From assembly GCA_009377475.1 (NCBI GenBank), contig WHTY01000002.1, positions 1 to 64,000 of the forward strand: a DNA stretch of 64,000 nucleotides, written 5' to 3'. How positions within the stretch are numbered: position 1 is the first letter of the stretch; each line of letters opens with the position of its first letter. The notes under the pieces are model-generated. The model was not told the origin of the DNA, ran no database searches, and was given only the letters and a program-made list of their open reading frames with translations. A program made the position numbers and the translations under genes. The stretch comes from Actinophytocola sp. Its GTDB lineage: Bacteria > Actinomycetota > Actinomycetes > Mycobacteriales > Pseudonocardiaceae. Shown here one piece after another: positions 5,449 through 32,806 of the stretch.

Positions 5449-6564
5449 TCAGACAACACTCAGAGGCAGCGGCACCCCCGCCAGGGACCGCGTCACCACC
5501 GGCAGTCGCGTCGCCACCTCGGTCAACGCCATGGCGGACGGCGCGTCCGGCGTGCTGGCCACCACCGGGGTACCCGCGTCGCCGGACGCGGTCAGCGCGG
5601 CGTCGATCGGGATCTGCCCGAGCAGGTCGGTGTCCAGCTCGTCCGCCAGCCGCTGACCACCGCCGGTGCCGAACAACGCCGTGTGCCTGCCGCACTCGCA
5701 GGCGAGCGCGCTCATGTTCTCCACCACCCCGGCGACCGGCATCCGCATGTCGCGCGCCATCCGCCCCACCCGTGAGGCCACCGACTGCGCCGCGACCTGC
5801 GGCGTGGTGACCGCGAGCAACGCGGCCTGGGGGAGCAGTTCCAGCAGCGACAGCGTGATGTCACCGGTACCGGGCGGCAGATCGATCAGCACAATGTCAG
5901 GGTCGTCCCAGTGTACGTCGGTCAGGAACTGCTCTAACGCCTTGTGCAGCATCGGCCCGCGCCACACGACCGGCTCGTTCTCGTCCACGAAGAACCCCAC
6001 CGACATCAGCCGTACCCCGTGCGCCTCCACCGGCAGCATCAGCCCCTTCAGCGCCACCGGGTTGCGCCGCACCCCGAACAGCTGCGGCACCGAGTAGCCC
6101 CAGACGTCGGCGTCCAGCACGCCCACCCGCTTGCCCTGCGCGGCGAGCGCGACCGCGAGGTTGGCGGTGATGGTGGACTTGCCGACGCCGCCCTTGCCGC
6201 TGGCCACGGCGTAGACGCGGGTGTGCTCGCCGATGCCGGTGGCGCGCTGTTCCCGCAGCCGCTGCGACAGCGCCAGGCGTTCCCGCTCCGACAGCGTGCC
6301 GAAGCTGACCTCGACCGCGCTGACCCCGGCGACCGACAGCGCCGCCGCCGTGACGTCCTCGCGCAGCCGCTCCCGCAGCGGGCAGCTGGACGTCGTCAGC
6401 GCGACCTCGACGTGCACCCGGCCGCCGCGTCCGGCCTGTGCGGCGCGCAGCATGCCAAGCGAGCCCAGGCTCCGGTGGATCTCCGGGTCCTCGACGGCGG
6501 CGACGGCCTCCCACAACGCCGCCTCGTCGACGCCGGTGGTGCGCAGCCGGGTCAGCATGGTCAT
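5449..6564 (-). CDS. Mrp/NBP35-type P-loop ATPase (Fe-S carrier)
   Basis: A 371-residue protein. The N-terminal ~90 residues are a MIP18/DUF59 domain (AVEDPEIHRSLGSLGM), followed by the deviant Walker A ASGKGGVGKSTITANLAVAL near residue 120 and the switch DLPPGTGDITLSL. Mrp proteins bind and transfer [4Fe-4S] clusters to apo-proteins in the cytoplasm; the usual C-terminal CxxC appears here as ACECG. The start at 6564 overlaps the oxidoreductase stop by 4 bp (ATGA), which implies translational coupling. This placement suggests it helps mature the iron-sulfur molybdoenzyme encoded upstream. An in-frame extension upstream of 6564 lies inside that gene and was not used. Confidence 0.87.
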   Translation of the reverse strand: MTMLTRLRTTGVDEAALWEAVAAVEDPEIHRSLGSLGMLRAAQAGRGGRVHVEVALTTSSCPLRERLREDVTAAALSVAGVSAVEVSFGTLSERERLALSQRLREQRATGIGEHTRVYAVASGKGGVGKSTITANLAVALAAQGKRVGVLDADVWGYSVPQLFGVRRNPVALKGLMLPVEAHGVRLMSVGFFVDENEPVVWRGPMLHKALEQFLTDVHWDDPDIVLIDLPPGTGDITLSLLELLPQAALLAVTTPQVAAQSVASRVGRMARDMRMPVAGVVENMSALACECGRHTALFGTGGGQRLADELDTDLLGQIPIDAALTASGDAGTPVVASTPDAPSAMALTEVATRLPVVTRSLAGVPLPLSVV

Positions 6565-24954: not shown

Positions 24955-25345
24955 GTGTCTCACGTGACCCCGGCCATCGATGCGATGCCGCCAGGCGCGC
25001 TCGCCTGGTCCCAGCCGGACCACAACGGCGCCGACCTGCTCAGCGACCCGGACAGCGGCACGCTGCCGGACGAGCTGAGCGGCCCCCGCGCTGCCCGGCC
25101 GGACTCCATCGAGGCGGCGTTCCAGCTCGCCAAGTTCCACGCCCCGGAGATCGTGCTCGGCCCCGGCTCGCTCGCCGAGCTGGGGCACGCCGCGCTGCGG
25201 GTGGGGGCCAGGAAGCCGTTCGTCGTCACCGACGGCGGCATCCAGGAGGCGGGGTGGGTGTCCGAGGCGGTGGGACACCTGCAGCTGGCGGGTCTTCGCC
25301 CGATCGTGTGGTCCGATGTCACGCCGAACCCGAAGGACCACGAGC
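24955..25345 (+). pseudogene. Iron-containing alcohol dehydrogenase, N-terminal remnant
   Basis: About 130 residues of a group-III alcohol dehydrogenase remain: FQLAKFHAPEIVLGPGSLAEL, then RKPFVVTDGGIQEAGWV and LRPIVWSDVTPNPKDHE. At about 25345, just before the GGGS nucleotide-binding loop, the frame stops resembling a dehydrogenase and the DNA continues as an out-of-frame sensor kinase. Some 250 residues including the metal ligands are gone, so this cannot be an enzyme. The start GTG with GAGGAG upstream is intact, as is an upstream operator-like palindrome. The best explanation is one deletion removing the dehydrogenase 3' end and the kinase 5' end. Confidence 0.8.
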
Positions 25346-26358
25346 CCATGGGAGGCGGAGCACGACGACGTCACCGACGTCAACGCGGACTACCAGCACA
25401 CCGGGATCGTGCGGGTCGGCATGACGCTGGACGGCGAGCCCGTCGGCGGCATCGCCGCGCGGCCCGGCCCCGCCGTCACGGTCGCCGACACCGACCTGGC
25501 GCTGCTGCGGGTGCTGGCCAACCACGCCGCCGTCGCGCTACACAACTCGTTCCTGCTGCACGCCACGACGCGGCTGCGGGGCAGGACCGCGCAACTGTCG
25601 GAGACGGCGGAGCAGCGCGCCCGCGACCTGGCCGCGCGCAACGCCGAGCTGGCCGAGACGCAGCAGCGGCTCATCGCGGCGATGCAGCGGCAGGCGCTCG
25701 ACGACGAGCGGCACCGCATCGCGCGGGAGCTGCACGACAGCGTCACCCAGGACGTGCTGTCGGCGGGTATGACGATCGAGCTGTGCCGGTCGGAGCTGCT
25801 CGACGGCCCGGATGACGTGGGGCCGACGATCGAACGACTCGGCGCAGCGAAGGACCTCACGCGGCACGCGGTGGAGCGGCTGCGGGCGGCGATCTACGCG
25901 CTGCACCACACGGCGGAGGAGTCGTCCGGCTCGCTGCCGGTGCTGCTGCAACGGCTGTCAACGGTGCACCTGCCGAGCGATCTGAAGGTGCAGGTCAGGG
26001 TGTCCGGCGAGCCGGTGGCGTTGCCGGGCGAGGCCGAGCACTCGCTGCTGCGGCTCACCGGCGAGGCGCTGTTCAACACCGTCATGCACACCACAGCGAC
26101 CCAGGCGCAAGTGCGGCTGCGGTACCAGGCGCGATCGTGCTCACGATCTCCGACGACGGCGACGGCGACCCGGCGCAGCTTCGCAAGATGCTGCGGCTCG
26201 CGTCGGCCGCCGACCTCGGCGGCGGGCACCGGGGACTGGCGAACATGGCGGCGCGCATCGCGGACCTCGACGGCACGATGTCGATCCGCAAGTCACGCCT
26301 CGGCGGCATCATGCTGCGGTTCGAGATTCCGGCACCACAGCACGAGAACAGACACTGA
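25346..26358 (+). pseudogene. GAF-type sensor histidine kinase, 5'-truncated and frameshifted
   Basis: The remaining frame begins EAEHDDVTDVNADYQHTG, a partial GAF domain (VGGIAARPGPAVTVADTDLALLRVLANHAAVALHN), followed by a coiled coil and a HisKA_3 box ERHRIARELHDSVTQDVLSA with the phospho-acceptor His. Near 26126-26130 one base is missing, and the ATPase part (IVLTISDDGDGDPAQL, GGHRGLANMAARIADLDG) continues in another frame to 26358. Sensor N-terminus and ATPase are therefore both disrupted. In mycobacteria I recall a similar kinase/regulator pair next to alcohol dehydrogenase and NDMA-dependent methanol dehydrogenase genes; that would fit this locus but was not checked. Confidence 0.8.
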
Positions 26359-26373
26359 CAGGAGGGCGGCGGG

Positions 26374-27037
26374 ATGACCGTGCGAGAGCAGGCGACCCCG
26401 ATGCGACCAGCGGACCCGCGCGAGCACACGGGCAGACGTGCACTGACCATCGTGCTCGTCGACGATCACGCGATCGTCCGGCAGGGACTGCGCTCGATCC
26501 TGGAACGCGAGGAGGACATGCGCGTGGTGGGGGAGGCGACCACCGCCGCCGAGGCGAGGGCGGTGATCGACCGGCTCCGCCCGGACATCGTGCTGTTCGA
26601 CCTCAAGCTGTCCACCGGATCGGACACCGAGGGCCTGACGGTGTGCTCGGAGCTGACCGAGCGGTACCCGGACATCGGCGTGCTTGTGCTGACGACGTTC
26701 CTGGACGATGCCCTGGTGCTGGAGGCGATCCGCAGGGGCGCGAAGGGCTACGTGATCAAGGACGTCGACACGAGCGGACTGGTGTCGTCGATCCGGGCGG
26801 TGTCGCGCAACGAGAGCGCGTTCGACTCGCACCACGCCGGACGAGCCGACGCTGACCGATCGCGAACAGGGCGTGCTTGAGCTGCTGGCGCACGGGCTGA
26901 GCAACCGCGACATCGGCCGCAGGCTGTACATCTCGGAGACCACCGTGAAGTTCCACGTCCGCAACATCATGCGAAAGCTGTCCGCGTCCAGCCGCGCCGA
27001 GGCGGTCTACGAGGCCAGCAAGATGGGGCTGATCTAG
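26374..27037 (+). pseudogene. NarL/LuxR-type response regulator, frameshifted
   Basis: The receiver domain is intact (TIVLVDDHAIVRQGL, phospho-acceptor Asp in DIVLFDLKLS, VLVLTTFLDDALVLEAIRRGAKGYVIKD). After NESAFDSH at about 26832 the frame breaks; the DNA-binding domain (EPTLTDREQGVLELLAHGLSNRD, then TTVKFHVRNIMRKL) resumes in another frame and ends at 27037. The linker also looks about ten residues short, so a small deletion rather than one-base slippage is likely. The gene follows the broken kinase by 15 bp and was clearly its partner. As written, only a receiver domain would be made. Confidence 0.82.
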
Positions 27038-27076: not shown

Positions 27077-27724
27077 TTACCCCACCAGCGGCGAGCCGAG
27101 CCGCAGCCCAGTGCCGCCGGTGGCCAGCGAGGTGACGTGGAAGAACAAGTAAGCGCCGACGGCGACGAACGAGAACACCACGATGCCCGCAGCGGTCTGC
27201 ATGCTCGCCGAGCCGGTCAGCGTCGCCGCGAGCACCAGCGCCAGTGACAGCGTGATCAGGCCGAACAACACGGTGAACGCGAGCGGGAGCCGCAACGTGG
27301 CGAGGGTGAGCAGACTGATCGTGGCCAGCCACGCGATGAGGAAGATCTCCTGCGTCGCGACGGCGGACTCGGCGGGAACGCCGAACCAGCCGTGCGTCAA
27401 TCCGAGAACCAGTGCCGCGTAGCTGAGCCAGAATCCGGTGAACACCCCGAAGATGGCGGCGACCGCGTTCTGGCCGAGCGCCGCGGCCCAGACCGCCGCG
27501 ATCAGCTGCCCGACTCCGGTCGCGACGAGGATGATGGCGATGGGGGCGCCCGCCGCCTCGGCGGGCACGTAGCCGACAAGCGTCAGACCGAGCGCGATGG
27601 CGCCGACGAGAAACGTCGGCACGCCGATCAGCGCCGGATCGCCTGCCAGCGGACCCGAAGGGCTCGGCGCGGGCTCGGGGGCGGTATCGGTCGGTTCCGG
27701 GGCGATCTGTTCGTGGGTTGGCAT
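27077..27724 (-). CDS. GPR1/FUN34/SatP-family acetate transporter
   Basis: A 215-residue membrane protein with a Pro/Glu-rich cytoplasmic N-terminus and six hydrophobic segments. The family signature normally written NPAPLGL appears as GDPALIGVPTFLVGAIALGL near residue 29; GVFTGFWLSYAALVLGL and WLATISLLTLATLRLPLAF match later parts. SatP proteins import acetate or succinate with protons. The start at 27724 follows GGAAGGAGCACCC. It lies downstream of the methyltransferase gene on the same strand and convergent with the dead response regulator. Uptake or export of the acid formed by alcohol oxidation is a reasonable guess. Confidence 0.82.
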   Translation of the reverse strand: MPTHEQIAPEPTDTAPEPAPSPSGPLAGDPALIGVPTFLVGAIALGLTLVGYVPAEAAGAPIAIILVATGVGQLIAAVWAAALGQNAVAAIFGVFTGFWLSYAALVLGLTHGWFGVPAESAVATQEIFLIAWLATISLLTLATLRLPLAFTVLFGLITLSLALVLAATLTGSASMQTAAGIVVFSFVAVGAYLFFHVTSLATGGTGLRLGSPLVG

Positions 27725-27836
27725 GGGTGCTCCTTCCGCTGATGGGATGGTTACCTGAGCAGGGTGGCGCACATCACTCCTCCCGGTCGCCGCGCAGGAA
27801 GGCGGTGCTGGCCTCGTCTTTCGGTCAGGCGGACAG

Positions 27837-28718
27837 CTAGCCTGCGGTGTCGATGACGAGCCAGCCGCCGTGGTGCTCGGTGACGGTGAACGGCCGTCCG
27901 CTGGCGATGCCGAGGTCGGTCAGCGCGTCGACGTCGAACGTGCGGACGTGGCCGTAGGTGGCATCGGGGACGTCTTCGAACGGCACCGCGATCACGACCC
28001 AGTTCGCGGCCAGCCGCACCGCCTCGGCGACGACCCGGACGCCCTCCGCCGGATCGAGGTGCTCCAGCAGGTGCAGCGCCGTGACGGTGTCGACTGACCG
28101 GTTCGGCAGCGGCACGCTGGTGGCGTCGCAGGCCAGGGTGTCGAGCGGCACGTGCCGGGAGTGCGCGACGTCCGCCAGCAGCCGCATCGCGCCAGGGACG
28201 ACGTCCGACGCGATCACCGAGGTGTCGCCGCGCTCGGCGAGCAGCAGCGGGAAGAAGCCGAAGCAGGACGCCAGGTCGAGCACCCTGCCGGGCGGGGTGA
28301 GCTGGCGAGCCCGCTCGTACACCGGCACCATCTCCGCGATGACCGAACCCGGCGCGCCGCCGCCCATCGCGGTCTGGCGGATCTTGGCGAGCGTGTTGGA
28401 GTAGAACGTGCGCCACGCCAGCATCGGGTCGGGCACCGTCGAGCGCACGATGCCGCTGAACACCCGCTCGAAGACGTCGTTGCCGGAGAGCCAGCCCGGA
28501 CGGAAGAGCTCGACGTCGAGCAGCCCGGCCAGGTCGTTGTCCAGCTGGTCAGGCCGTAATCCGTGGCGCAGCTCGATCTGGCCACCGTGTCTGCGGAGCT
28601 GGAAGTGCGCTGTCGTGGTGATGACGTCCGCTCGGTCGCGGCGTCGCTCGCCGTGCACCACCCGCACCCGGACGTCGCGGTCGCGGCCCAGCGCCAGCGG
28701 GTCGGGCGCCGCGCTCAT
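27837..28718 (-). CDS. mftM: SAM-dependent methyltransferase, probably mycofactocin methyltransferase MftM
   Basis: A 293-residue protein. The N-terminal ~110 residues (TTAHFQLRRHGGQIELRHGL, LFRPGWLSGNDVFERVFSGI) are not part of the methyltransferase fold. A class-I Rossmann domain follows: VLDLASCFGFFPLLLAE (motif I), VIASDVVPGAM, LACDATSVPLPNRSVDTVTALHLLEHL. The position beside NDMA-dependent methanol dehydrogenase and remnants of an alcohol two-component system strongly suggests MftM, which methylates the oligosaccharide of the redox cofactor mycofactocin; I recall the mycobacterial mftM in the same kind of neighbourhood. Its ATG overlaps the VWA stop by 4 bp, so the genes are coupled. Confidence 0.7.
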   Translation of the reverse strand: MSAAPDPLALGRDRDVRVRVVHGERRRDRADVITTTAHFQLRRHGGQIELRHGLRPDQLDNDLAGLLDVELFRPGWLSGNDVFERVFSGIVRSTVPDPMLAWRTFYSNTLAKIRQTAMGGGAPGSVIAEMVPVYERARQLTPPGRVLDLASCFGFFPLLLAERGDTSVIASDVVPGAMRLLADVAHSRHVPLDTLACDATSVPLPNRSVDTVTALHLLEHLDPAEGVRVVAEAVRLAANWVVIAVPFEDVPDATYGHVRTFDVDALTDLGIASGRPFTVTEHHGGWLVIDTAG

Positions 28719-30239
28719 CGGCCCACTAACTCGATAGTGAGGTCCCGAGCGGTGCGCTCCAGCCCGGACAGGTCGCGCACCACTCGCACCCGGTCGCAGT
28801 ATTCGGCGTAGTCGGGCAGGTCGCAGCCGCCGAGACCCCACGAGTAGCGCGGCTCCGGCGTGAGCCAGATGGTCTCGCGCGCCCGGCGGGTCAGCTCCGC
28901 GAACCCGGCGAGGTTCGGGTCGTTGCCGCTGCCCCTGCCGTCACCGAGCACCAGCAACGTCGTCCGCCGGGTGACCGACGAGGCGTACTCGCTGACGAAC
29001 TCGCTGAACACGGCGCCGTAGTCGGAGTTCGCGTTGACATCGAGGACGTCGCCGCCGAAGATCAGCCCCAGCGCGCGGTCGGCGGGATGGTCCGCGAACA
29101 GCTCCGTCGTCTCGGCGACGTCCGCCACGAACGCGAACGACCGCACCTGCGCGAACAGATCCTGGAGGCCGTGCACCAGGTGCAGCGTGAACCGCGCCGT
29201 CGCCCGCACGGACAGGCTGACGTCGGCTAGCACGACCAGCCGGGGCTTGTCCTCGGTGCGCCGCACGGTGACCGGCGCGAACGGCACGCCGTCGTAGCGC
29301 ATGTTGCGGCGCATCGTCTTGCCGGGATCGACCCTGCCCACCGGCGACACCCCGCCTGCGGTGGGTCAGCGCGCCCCGTAGCGTGCGCGCCAGCCTGCGC
29401 AACGACTCCTCCAGGTCGGCGCGCTCCCGCTCAGCGACACTGTCCACGGTGGCCACCCGCTGTTCACGGGACTCGACGGCGCGGGTCTCAAGCGAGAGCA
29501 ACGCCTCAAGGTGCCGCTTGAGCGCCTGCGGCAAGTTCGCCAGCACGCCAGCCATCCGCTTGCGCAACGCGGCGGCGTCGGACTCGTCGCCGGTCTGGTC
29601 CTCCTGGTCGTTGAGCCAGCCGAGCAGCGCCTCGGACTCCGCGATGGTCAGCTCGGCGTCCACCGTGGTGCCGGAATCGCCCGCGAGCTTGCCGGGTGTG
29701 CCGGCGCCGTGCAGTCGTTCGGTGTCGAGTTGCACGCGGTAGCCCTCGCTGCCCGCGACGACGTCGTTGTCCTTGGAGAACACGATCTCGTCGGTCAGCG
29801 AAGCGATGTCGATCTTGTTCGCCTCCTGGTGCAGGTTGTAGCGCTGCGCCAGGTCCTCCTGGTCGAAGTAGTCGCGGATGCTAGACGGCTTGCCGTGCTC
29901 GTGGCCCTGCTGGGGCGTCTGGCTCGGCTCGTCGGACAGCGTGAACGACTCCAGCCCGCCGGTGTCGGTGAGGTCGTCGTGCTCGTGGCTGTGGCCGTGC
30001 CCGTGGTCCTCGCCGCCGACCTTCACCAGCGCGAAGAAGGCGTCGAAGACCTCGTCGAACGTCGGCTCGTCGCGCCGGTCCTTGACCAGCGCGACCCGCA
30101 GCGCCGCCCGCAGCCGTTCCTTGTCGGCGAGCACGCCCGGCTGCGCGGCGCAGCGGAGCGCGTCCAGCACCTCGGGCACCGAGACGCGCACCCCGTACAG
30201 CCGCAGCAGCCGGACGAACCGGTGGATCGTGGCTTCCAC
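28715..30239 (-). pseudogene. VWA-domain protein with His-rich segment, single-base frameshift
   Basis: The GTG at 30239 (EATIHRFVRLLRLYGVRVS) follows AAGGGGGC. The first ~295 residues contain a His-rich stretch (GGEDHGHGHSHEHDD) near residue 75 and a helical middle. At a run of four C at 29350-29353 the frame shifts; the rest continues in the next frame with a von Willebrand A domain whose metal site is PRLVVLADVSLSVRATARF (DxSxS), then LLVLGDGRGSGNDPN. Removing one base restores a ~508-residue protein. VWA proteins of this type partner MoxR/NorQ-class AAA+ ATPases to activate metalloenzymes. Sequencing error in the homopolymer is a real possibility. Confidence 0.8.
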
Positions 30240-30250
30240 CGCGTGCCCCC

Positions 30251-31423
30251 TTACAACGCCCTGCGACGGGCGAACGAGCGGCTGCCCTGCCCGGAGTTCA
30301 CCGGCATCCGCTGCGGCTTCCCCGACGAGTTGCCGTAGTACCCGTCGTCGAACCGGCCCGGTTCGTCCTTGGCCGCCCGCACCGCCGCGCCATCGGGCTC
30401 GTCGTGGTGGTGATGCCCGTTGTGCGAGTGATGATGGTGGTGGCCGTGCCCGTGCGAGTGGCCCAGCGACGCTGGCACCTCGGTGTTCGGGTCGACAAGG
30501 CGCGGCAAGGCGTCCAGGGTCTTGTCGACGTCCTTGTCGTACTTGACCACCACCGACACCGTGTCCGCCAGCACCTGCGCCGACAGCTCCTCCGCGCCGA
30601 GCACCGCGAGCGTGCGGGCCCAGTCGATCGTCTCCGAGATGCTGGGTGCCTTGCGCAGCTCCAGCTCCCGCAGCCCGCGCACGATGTGCACCAGCTGCTC
30701 GGCCAGCGCGTCGGGCAGCCCCGTCCGGTTGCTGCGCACGATCTCCAGCTCCCGCTCCGCCGCCGGATAGTCGAGGAACAGGTGCAGGCAGCGCCGTTTC
30801 AGCGCCGCCGCGAGGTCGCGGGTGTTGTTCGACGTCAGTACGACGTAGGGCCGTTGGTCCGCCGTGAACGTGCCGACCTCCGGGATGGAGATCTGGTACT
30901 CGCCCAGCATCTCCAGCAGCACCGCCTCCAGGGCCTCGTCCGCCCGGTCCACCTCGTCGACCAGCAGGACGGCGGGCTGTTCCGAGCGCACCGCTGCCAG
31001 CAGCGGCCGGGGCGCGAGGAACCGTTCGGAGAAGAACACGCTCTCCTGCGCCCCGATGCGTGTCACGGCGTCGTCGAGCGTGGCGGCGTCGGCCACCACC
31101 TCGCCGATCTTGTCCCGCAGCATCTGGGTGTAGAGCAGCTGCTTGCCGTAGTCCCAGTCGTAGAGCGCCTTGGTCTCGTCCTGGCCTTCGTAGCACTGCA
31201 ACCGGATCAGCCTGCGCCCGGTCGCCGCCGCCAGCACCTTCGCGAGCTCGGTCTTGCCGACCCCGGCAGGCCCCTCGATCAGCACCGGCTTGTCCAGCCG
31301 GGTCTGCAGGAAGACCGTGGTGGCCAGCCGGGAGTCGGCGATGTAGCCCTGCTCCGCCAGCGCGGTGCCGACGGCGTGGACGGAGTCAAACGCCGCCGGG
31401 TGAGATCCATTGCCTGCGCTCAT
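30251..31423 (-). CDS. MoxR-type AAA+ ATPase with His-rich C-terminal tail
   Basis: A 390-residue protein. The AAA+ core has Walker A IEGPAGVGKTEL near residue 50, Walker B AVLLVDEVDRADEALEAVLLEML near 152, and sensor-1 YVVLTSNNTRDL. After ~305 residues comes a histidine-rich segment (GHSHGHGHHHHHSHNGHHHH) able to bind Ni, Zn or Co. MoxR-class ATPases with VWA partners remodel enzymes to insert or activate metal centres (NorQ/NorD, CbbQ/CbbO). Here ATPase and VWA protein both carry His clusters and lie behind a metal-dependent methanol dehydrogenase. The VWA gene starts 11 bp later. The ATG at 31423 follows CGAAGGGACACGC. Confidence 0.88.
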   Translation of the reverse strand: MSAGNGSHPAAFDSVHAVGTALAEQGYIADSRLATTVFLQTRLDKPVLIEGPAGVGKTELAKVLAAATGRRLIRLQCYEGQDETKALYDWDYGKQLLYTQMLRDKIGEVVADAATLDDAVTRIGAQESVFFSERFLAPRPLLAAVRSEQPAVLLVDEVDRADEALEAVLLEMLGEYQISIPEVGTFTADQRPYVVLTSNNTRDLAAALKRRCLHLFLDYPAAERELEIVRSNRTGLPDALAEQLVHIVRGLRELELRKAPSISETIDWARTLAVLGAEELSAQVLADTVSVVVKYDKDVDKTLDALPRLVDPNTEVPASLGHSHGHGHHHHHSHNGHHHHDEPDGAAVRAAKDEPGRFDDGYYGNSSGKPQRMPVNSGQGSRSFARRRAL

Positions 31424-31454
31424 GCGTGTCCCTTCGGAGTGCGAGTGCGCGGTG

Positions 31455-31509
31455 CGGGCCGAAGGTGCCCTTGGGTACCGAATATGTACCCAAGGGCACC
31501 TTCGGCCCG
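31455..31509 (-). terminator. Perfect 24-bp hairpin between methanol dehydrogenase and the AAA+ gene
   Basis: Arms 31455-31478 and 31486-31509 are fully complementary with a 7-base loop (CGAATAT). It begins 4 bp after the dehydrogenase stop and ends 31 bp before the AAA+ start. It can terminate transcription or act as a partial stop that lowers expression of the activator genes relative to the enzyme. Confidence 0.75.
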
Positions 31510-31513
31510 GCCG

Positions 31514-32806
31514 TCAGCTGAGCAGGTCATCCAGCTCGCCGTTCATGCAGTGGTCCACGACCGGGCGGACGGTCTCGAACGTGCACTCCTTCGGGTTGCC
31601 CGGCGTGCACGCGTCGCCGAGGACGTGGTTGGTGATGCGGTCGACGTCGGTGTCGTCGCCCTTGATCACCGATGCCTGCTCGTAGAACTTCGTCGGTCCC
31701 TGCCCGAGGCGGTTCTTCGAGTAGGTGTCCTGCTTGACGTCCACGAACCGCTCCGGGATGCCGACGTCGCGCAGCAGCCGGATCGACGCGGCCAGCGCGG
31801 CGTCCGCGGCTTGGACGTCGGTCATGCCGTGGGTGTCCACGCCCATCGCTTCCGCCATCTCCGCGAACCGCTTGTACGCCACCGGCATGTTGAACGCCCA
31901 CACCCTCGGCAGCGCGATCGCGTTGTTGAGGCCGTGGTGGGTGTCGTAGAACGCGCTCACCGCGTGCGAGATGGAGTGGATGATGCCCAGCCCGCCGGAG
32001 TTGAACGCCTGCGCGGCGATGTACTGCGCGTACATCATGCCCTCGCGGCCGGACAGCTCGGTCGGGTTCCAGGTGGCTTGCCGCAGGTTCTCGGCGGTGA
32101 GCTTGATCGCGCGCAGCGCGTTGCCAAGCGACGGCTCGAAGTTCAGCCGCGACACGTACGGCTCGGAGGCGTGCGCCAGCACGTCGAACCCGCACTGCGC
32201 GGTGTAGTCGATCGGGCAGTCGTAGTACAACGTCGGGTCGTCGATCGCCAGTGACGTCACCGAGGCGTCGTCGAACGCGACGTACTTGTGCGGGTTGTCC
32301 GGGTCGGTGGTGGTGTCGGTGATGACGTATGCCCACGACGTCTCCGAGCCGGTGCCCGCCGTGGTGGACACTGCGATGTGCGGCGGGTTGCTCGGGTTCT
32401 CGGACTTGTTGAAGCCCTCGAAGTCGTTGACGTTGCGGCCGTCGTGCGCGACCGAGATCCGCGCGCCCTTGCAGGCGTCGTGCGAGGAACCGCCGCCGAT
32501 GGAGACGAAGCTGTCGCATTTGTTCTGCTGATAGAGCGACACCGCGTCCATCACGTTGTAGTCCTTCGGGTTGGACTCCACCTCGTCGTACACGACGACG
32601 TCCAGCCCGTGGTACTTCATGGACTCGACGATCTTGTGCACGGTGTCCGACCCGCGCAGCCCGGTGGTCATCACCAGCGTCTTCGTGAAGCCGAGGTTCT
32701 TGGCCTCGGGGCCGATCATCTCGTGCCCGCCGGGGCCCATCAGGGCGCGCGGGAACGGGTGGAACTCCTTGATCGGGAACGGCTTGAGTAGTTCGTCTAC
32801 CTGCAT
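31514..32806 (-). CDS. mno: NDMA-dependent (mycofactocin-linked) methanol dehydrogenase
   Basis: A 430-residue group-III alcohol dehydrogenase of the Mno/Mdo type. Visible blocks are FVSIGGGSSHDACKGARI near residue 110 (nucleotide-binding loop), VSTTAGTGSETSWAYVITD, and the metal region FDVLAHASEPYVS ... GLGIIHSISHAVSAFYDTHHGLNNAIALP. Such enzymes oxidise methanol or other primary alcohols with tightly bound NADP(H), and cannot exchange it with free cofactor, so electrons leave through mycofactocin or artificial NDMA. The ATG at 32806 follows CGGAAGGTACAGACAC. It heads the locus with the AAA+/VWA/methyltransferase operon. 1,3-propanediol or other short diols are alternative substrates. Confidence 0.88.
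   Translation of the reverse strand: MQVDELLKPFPIKEFHPFPRALMGPGGHEMIGPEAKNLGFTKTLVMTTGLRGSDTVHKIVESMKYHGLDVVVYDEVESNPKDYNVMDAVSLYQQNKCDSFVSIGGGSSHDACKGARISVAHDGRNVNDFEGFNKSENPSNPPHIAVSTTAGTGSETSWAYVITDTTTDPDNPHKYVAFDDASVTSLAIDDPTLYYDCPIDYTAQCGFDVLAHASEPYVSRLNFEPSLGNALRAIKLTAENLRQATWNPTELSGREGMMYAQYIAAQAFNSGGLGIIHSISHAVSAFYDTHHGLNNAIALPRVWAFNMPVAYKRFAEMAEAMGVDTHGMTDVQAADAALAASIRLLRDVGIPERFVDVKQDTYSKNRLGQGPTKFYEQASVIKGDDTDVDRITNHVLGDACTPGNPKECTFETVRPVVDHCMNGELDDLLS

Follow-up and report, generated by a model that had tools for sequence, protein, structure and literature searches.

The 64,000-nucleotide stretch of DNA analysed here (the window; positions 1 to 64,000 of contig WHTY01000002.1, Actinophytocola sp., assembly GCA_009377475.1) carries, one behind the other on the reverse strand, genes for an N,N-dimethyl-4-nitrosoaniline (NDMA)-dependent methanol dehydrogenase (Mno), a MoxR-class AAA+ ATPase resembling MadB, a VWA protein resembling MadC, and the methyltransferase MftM of the mycofactocin pathway (Table 1). 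The ATPase and its VWA partner, each bearing a cluster of histidine (His) residues, are the subject of this report, together with the dehydrogenase that they accompany. An initial annotation of the sequence had described this arrangement, namely Mno, a His-tailed ATPase, a VWA protein with its own His cluster and a coupled methyltransferase on one strand, and it holds except that the VWA gene is not a single reading frame. The GTG start of madC at 30239 lies 11 bases after the madB stop and the ATG of mftM at 28718 shares 4 bases with the madC stop, so that madB, madC, and mftM appear to be coupled. The same gene order is found in other phyla, with the His clusters at the same two positions, which goes beyond chance.

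Methanol and ethanol oxidation in mycobacteria and their relatives is described as the work of Mno-type enzymes (PMC11778925, PMC11303327). The window Mno passes the cut-off of TIGR04266 (684.1 bits versus 625). Its residues D208, H212, H277, and H291, unchanged in all 45 aligned Mno sequences, are the Asp and three His that we take, from their positions in lactaldehyde reductase, to be the metal ligands of iron-containing alcohol dehydrogenases (ADHs). The window MadB falls below the cut-off of NF047784 (381.7 bits versus 475), yet this is its best NCBIfam match, and its Walker A residues as well as D156 and E157 are invariant or nearly so in alignments. In the structural model (mean predicted local distance difference test, pLDDT, of 73.6), the AAA+ core is mostly firm and the end is disordered from residue 320, with pLDDT below 50 across residues 320-390, His cluster included. 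The top 21 PDB matches of this model in Foldseek are all NorQ or CbbQ chains; by its predicted fold, MadB is a MoxR AAA+ ATPase of the NorQ/CbbQ type.

Table 1. Features of the mno-madB-madC-mftM locus and its surroundings in the window
Feature	Position	Strand	Description and basis
mno, NDMA-dependent methanol dehydrogenase, iron-containing ADH family	31514..32806	-	430 aa; TIGR04266, PF00465, PF25137
madB-like, MoxR-class AAA+ ATPase, NorQ/CbbQ type	30251..31423	-	390 aa; NF047784 381.7 bits; Foldseek
MadB His cluster, residues 322-340, 13 His, disordered C-terminal tail	30404..30460	-	sequence; pLDDT
madC-like first frame, N-terminal helical domain and linker	29351..30239	-	GTG start 30239
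MadC His cluster DHGHGHSHEHDD, linker start	29973..30008	-	sequence; L111 homologue model
madC-like second frame, CoxE-type VWA domain, metal ion-dependent adhesion site (MIDAS) DxSxS	28715..29350	-	PF05762 103 bits; NF047783 184.2 bits
mftM, mycofactocin oligosaccharide methyltransferase	27837..28718	-	NF041255 348.2 bits
Perfect 24-base inverted repeat, 7-base loop, mno/madB intergenic	31455..31509	.	copy of genome-dispersed palindrome
Damaged remnant: second iron-containing ADH start fused to MnoS-like histidine kinase, then MnoR-like response regulator	25066..27034	+	tblastn
Gpr1/Fun34/YaaH-type (acetate transporter-like) protein adjoining mftM	27077-27772	-	PF01184 64.5 bits

The two pieces of the window MadC reach 93.6 and 184.2 bits against NF047783 (the latter over positions 293-494), for a cut-off of 600; intact MadC proteins of the same branch, at 244.9-299.3 bits, likewise stay below it. 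A model of the homologue at locus L111, with its sequence unchanged (mean pLDDT 65.6, predicted template modelling score 0.44), shows a helical N-terminal domain up to about residue 91, a disordered stretch from 92 to 224, a long helix and then the VWA domain, with the His cluster at the start of the disordered stretch. The modelled succession of helical N-domain, disordered linker, and VWA domain is that of NorD. A second MadC copy, lacking the His cluster, was seen at L074:5427-6944, after a His-bearing copy and ahead of MftM.

As had been proposed, the pair accompanies Mno-type dehydrogenases. In an order-level survey of 150 genomes, Mno was called from TIGR04266 matches over the cut-off and full-length MadC from profile matches running from position 1-9 to at least 486 with E <= 1e-20, at most nine candidates being scored per genome. 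Mno was present in 17 genomes, at 18 loci, and a full-length MadC lay about 1.1-1.4 kb downstream at all 18 (17 intact, that of the window in two pieces), versus none in the 133 genomes without Mno. MadB sits between the two in 15 of the 15 loci fetched. It is likely, in our view, that Mno has a dedicated activator in MadB and MadC.

In the window, the reading of madC switches frame at about 29350, after '...ALTHRRR', at a run of four G. Since the 17 other full-length copies of the order-level survey are all unbroken, a programmed frameshift is unlikely, and madC is also in one frame, with no break in the alignment, in the nine closest named loci (among the best 80 of at least 583 MadB relatives). 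The break is either a sequencing or assembly error or a real mutation, the two being indistinguishable here. A base-composition scan of the window shows seven same-strand frame changes, including breaks at 25.3 and 29.3 kb.

The association extends across the phylum. Mno or Mno-like genes (TIGR04266 at 360 bits or more) were found in 18 of 296 genomes surveyed at this level, six of them over the cut-off and two of the 18 in two pieces. In 17 of these genomes, MadB comes directly after that gene in the same orientation, with no more than 300 bases between the profile matches; in the remaining one, G163, the contig stops 363 bases downstream of the Mno-like gene. Two operons that differ in type (L236 and L237) are present in genome G367, each with its own MadB and MadC, one of the mycobacterial type without His clusters and the other of the window type with them; they provide a natural test pair. 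At a looser threshold (E <= 1e-30), relatives of MadB turn up in 162 of the 296 genomes, most of which have no Mno, and the wide MadB family is hence not specific to Mno. The possibility raised at the outset that the pair might occur mostly without Mno thus applies to these looser relatives but not to full-length MadC, which in the order-level survey stands only beside Mno.

Named genomes were scanned with the MadB alignment, and the best 80 relatives kept. In all of the nine closest, Mno (85-89% identity) lies directly upstream and MadC downstream; they come from Actinomycetospora, Mycobacterium sp. 236, Streptomyces ochraceiscleroticus, Halopolyspora, Mycolicibacterium litorale F4, two Nocardioides, Amycolatopsis rhizosphaerae, and a Pseudonocardiales metagenome-assembled genome (MAG). 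Among the other 71, MadB is immediately preceded by a Mno or Mno-like gene in six: an alphaproteobacterial MAG (L123), a Competibacteraceae MAG (L128), the Rhodococcus-type L161 and L170, and, with weaker matches, the Geobacter-type MAGs L167 and L174. An Anaeromyxobacter locus (L185) shows a weaker Mno match after MadC, and no Mno was seen at the remaining 64, some of whose contigs end too soon to tell. In a quick tree of 88 MadB cores (47 linked to Mno, that of the window, and, of the 88 unlinked, the 40 with the best scores), the rows without Mno linkage form one side of a single supported branch (Shimodaira-Hasegawa-like approximate likelihood ratio test, 96). No common target emerged for the unlinked pairs: ten neighbour proteins from six loci, compared with Pfam, fell into unrelated families, including thioesterase, MarR, radical S-adenosylmethionine (SAM), peptidases, RecQ, and acyl-CoA dehydrogenase.

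The His clusters were scored in 135 MadB rows from 134 of 135 stretches (L071-L190 and L236-L250; L077 gave none), a tail cluster being at least four His in 20 residues and the MadC motif HxHxH. Of the 47 Mno-linked rows, 33 have the tail cluster, as against none of the 88 unlinked; the Mno match is weak or cut in three linked rows (L088, L167, L174), and leaving these out gives 32 positives among 44, while seven unlinked loci hold fewer than 1600 bases upstream of MadB, so that Mno could lie outside. With kinship and six near-identical unlinked pairs in the set, Fisher values are not usable as probabilities. Among the 46 linked loci with a MadC, both clusters are found in 30, neither in 14, a tail with a degenerate MadC motif in two and the MadC motif alone in none; HxHxH is likewise missing from all 75 scorable unlinked MadC. 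The loci without clusters are two of Rhodococcus type, four of mycobacterial type, four more of the order, L128, L085, and the Geobacter-type L167 and L174. The conservation expected of the clusters is therefore found in many lineages, but not in Rhodococcus or mycobacterial-type operons. Two loci of one genus in the window's family, L239 and L240, differ in both clusters together. Among the aligned Mno sequences, no residue separated His-type from His-less systems at the set threshold.

Alternatively, the clusters might sense or scavenge metal and turn the ATPase on or off with the metal supply, or be drifting low-complexity repeats devoid of a role. Their length does vary and several lineages lack them, and on the tree the tail trait changes six times at best (at least three changes being forced) and the MadC motif eight times. 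Such explanations are nevertheless improbable: the clusters keep to the same two positions even between distant lineages, in Actinomycetota of several orders and in the alphaproteobacterial L123, both partners or neither carry them in 44 of 46 loci, no unlinked tail has one, and in another clade a short fixed form of the tail, MYEMHRSxHKHxH, recurs in 10 loci, mostly together with HDHDH-like MadC motifs. The His-rich stretches of MadB and MadC are probably metal-binding. Both fall in segments predicted as disordered, which match the NorQ C-terminus and the NorD linker; by analogy they would lie near each other, and they could act as a metal store.

The MadB tail has further features of its own. 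Its median length is 63 residues in Mno-linked rows versus 24.5 in unlinked ones, and a G-x-R-S/A/T-F or AFRG-type motif, perhaps a docking peptide, is present in 24 of 47 linked tails and in none of the 88 unlinked; this motif is also kept in the His-less rows L239, L249, and L250. Two more MadB relatives are encoded in the window's genome (G000), at L089 (contig C124) and L090 (contig C7); neither is His-tailed or beside Mno, and one has a VWA partner.

The methyltransferase, whose role in mycofactocin synthesis had been deemed probable, is indeed MftM (348.2 bits against NF041255, cut-off 200). Its gene is found downstream on the same strand in 17 of the 47 Mno-linked loci, and the window's genome carries the MftC gene elsewhere (C8:410-1426). 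This raises the question of whether the pair serves mycofactocin, which it might load or couple to Mno, and not the dehydrogenase itself, a view with which it fits that all six genomes of the phylum-level survey with Mno over the cut-off, the window's included, have MftC over the cut-off (a partial match in G237), MftM being over its cut-off in the same six of 32 genomes tested. However, 11 of the 12 genomes with a more distant Mno-like gene (75 to 100% complete) have neither MftC nor MftM over the cut-off, G156 alone having MftC, and in 10 of these 11 a His-tailed MadB stands beside the Mno-like gene, the eleventh, G163, being the one cut by the contig end. The pair thus keeps to the dehydrogenase and not to the cofactor, no tie to mycofactocin as such is supported, and mycofactocin loading by the pair, weakened by these surveys, becomes very improbable.

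The best reading, to which we would give an even chance, is that MadB and MadC act on Mno in the manner of NorQD, as a metal inserter or activator equipped with metal-binding modules of its own. They would form an ATP-driven machine like NorQ/NorD dedicated to Mno, in which MadB would be the ring motor and MadC would use its N-terminal domain and the MIDAS face of its VWA domain to grip the dehydrogenase, folded or only partly so. ATP hydrolysis would stretch the MadC linker, opening the target so that its active-site metal, most likely zinc, could be inserted or replaced. That both parts of the machine carry His-rich stretches suggests a built-in metal supply for Mno activation: the clusters of the MadB tail and of the base of the MadC linker may hold metal near the meeting place of the two proteins and hand it to the site. 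In its fullest form, an inserter with its own supply and two matched His modules, at the motor tail and the linker root, which feeds a cytosolic alcohol dehydrogenase with or without mycofactocin, the proposal is more tentative and falls somewhat short of an even chance.

As to mechanism, metal insertion or exchange leads, with a probability of about one half, and reactivation comes next. In the latter case, the pair would open Mno to free a dead-end complex (oxidised or damaged NADP(H), an inhibitor or a formaldehyde adduct), as CbbQO does on Rubisco, and the His clusters would be secondary. The rubisco activases described in chemoautotrophs reportedly include CbbQO. CbbQ is among the nearest folds of MadB, multiple rubisco activases are known in chemoautotrophs (PMC4660213), Mno holds NADP(H) according to the title of Bystrykh 1993 (referenced in PMC11303327), and some lineages manage without His clusters. 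Reactivation leaves unexplained, however, the joint presence or absence of metal-binding-type clusters in both partners, and we regard it as a serious but rather unlikely alternative. A chaperone that helps Mno subunits to form a decamer has also been considered, by reference to the cage of RavA with decameric LdcI (PMC6987120) and to the likening of Mno-type enzymes to the decameric methanol dehydrogenase of Bacillus (PMC11303327). It does not account for the His clusters either. In addition, related multi-chain enzymes with solved structures (such as 8zwd and 3bfj) are not known to need such a pair, and an assembly role seems quite doubtful.

Several observations weigh against metal insertion from an own supply, or limit it. 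Gene linkage cannot separate metal insertion from reactivation or assembly. The clusters are missing in 14 of 47 Mno-linked loci and are thus not essential to the machine; since Rhodococcus and mycobacterial-type operons do without them, they are hardly needed for basic activity. Their paired occurrence rests partly on related sequences: firm branches of the tree offer only three independent contrasts, with MadC concordant in nearly all of 200 pairings, and this number is too small for the sign test to be significant. At L084 (G130), Mno and a His-tailed MadB are present with no MadC in the 9 kb fetched downstream, and madC of the window's genome is itself broken as sequenced. No NorD chain is among the listed structure matches of the MadC model, and a MadC sequence profile retrieved nothing from the PDB at E 0.01. 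The zinc response of the Mycobacterium smegmatis mno operon speaks for the metal reading, with limits: genes 6240-6242 are tabulated as going down together, by 24-28 fold when zur is mutated and by 4.6-6.4 fold when smtB is, and under zinc excess 6242 is down 4.6 fold, 6241 and 6240 being listed in parentheses at 3.7 and 3.0 fold (PMC7174638). This response is, however, a lowering and may be indirect, the entries of 6240-6242 under a zinc chelator are blank, with 6237 up 7.4 fold, and no Zur site is marked for 6240-6242 in the tables of the same paper. Finally, titles and the starts of abstracts in the open literature revealed no experiment on MadB or MadC.

Other features surround the operon. 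The remnant on the opposite strand was found by tblastn with proteins of L114 and L113, and its genes stand near the operon in relatives. Only the start of the second iron-containing ADH is left; it runs at 25340-25344 into the MnoS-like kinase, where about 300 residues of the ADH and roughly the first 150 of MnoS are missing, and further frame breaks affect MnoS (about 26122-26149) and MnoR (about 26798-26841). The damage reflects either decay or an assembly error or poor sequence. The protein encoded at 27077-27772 scores below the cut-off of the NCBI acetate transporter model. The inverted repeat between mno and madB was considered as an operon-specific element and rejected, since it recurs at scattered sites of the 5.27 Mb genome, where 18 bases of its arm are matched 59 times per strand with at most 2 mismatches; among the matches listed, many stand as facing pairs. 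It possibly lowers read-through into madBC; the mno/madB intergenic region folds well at some other loci and not at others.

Mno-type enzymes are difficult to transfer to other hosts, which a dedicated activator, if confirmed, could explain. The literature found gave no settled account of how Mno-type nicotinoprotein dehydrogenases acquire metal and become active. The field of MoxR/VWA proteins would also gain a client with a simple assay, for which natural pairs with and without His modules are available, even within one genome (G367).

MadB and MadC, with Mno as the likely client, are of the kind of MoxR/VWA machines that activate client proteins. Among the closest described systems is the msmeg_6242-6238 operon of M. 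smegmatis, controlled by MnoSR (PMC11303327) and taken here together with msmeg_6237. By the gene descriptions, through which the two were compared, this gene set likewise contains an alcohol dehydrogenase (6242), an AAA ATPase (6241), and a hypothetical protein (6240), taken as the MadC counterpart by position; its further genes encode MnoS and MnoR, another alcohol dehydrogenase, and a SAM methyltransferase (PMC7174638, PMC11303327). The MSMEG_6241 protein is reported to rise together with 6242 in mycofactocin mutants (PMC8406134), and MftM has been described (PMC11778925). In contrast to M. smegmatis, the window has a MadB of a branch mostly endowed with His clusters and mftM directly after madC, whereas what is left of its second dehydrogenase and of MnoSR lies damaged on the opposite strand. 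The NCBIfam families MadB (NF047784) and MadC (NF047783) are the best matches of the pair, which stays below their curated cut-offs (382 versus 475 bits, and 245-299 versus 600 for MadC of the branch); in the sample genomes with MadC over the cut-off (G278, G288, G367, G422), that operon is without His clusters. The origin of the names MadB and MadC was not found in the open literature.

CoxD and CoxE of CO dehydrogenase are related through the VWA domain, which is of the CoxE type (PF05762), and CoxD takes part in metal cluster assembly (PMC3471820). The dehydrogenase beside the pair belongs, however, to another family, and no CO dehydrogenase subunit was present among the six stretches of the window that were scanned, five of which are those of the operon. 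CbbQ/CbbO, the Rubisco activase, also combines a MoxR ATPase with a VWA partner (PMC13036017), and CbbQ is among the best fold matches, but its client is another one and its presumed action is repair rather than metal loading. A further likeness is to NorQ/NorD, which inserts iron into nitric oxide reductase: NorQ is the closest fold to MadB, and MadC shares with NorD the order of N-domain, flexible linker, and VWA domain, the linker of NorD being needed for iron insertion. Here, unlike in NorQ/NorD, the client is an alcohol dehydrogenase and both partners bear His clusters; such clusters go unmentioned in the consulted sections on NorQD, whose sequences were not searched for them, and no paper on a His-rich MoxR/VWA pair was recognised from titles and starts of abstracts in the open literature. 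The M. smegmatis operon and the NCBI family names MadB and MadC were thus already known, and what is new is that the MadB and MadC proteins linked to Mno carry paired, optional His modules.

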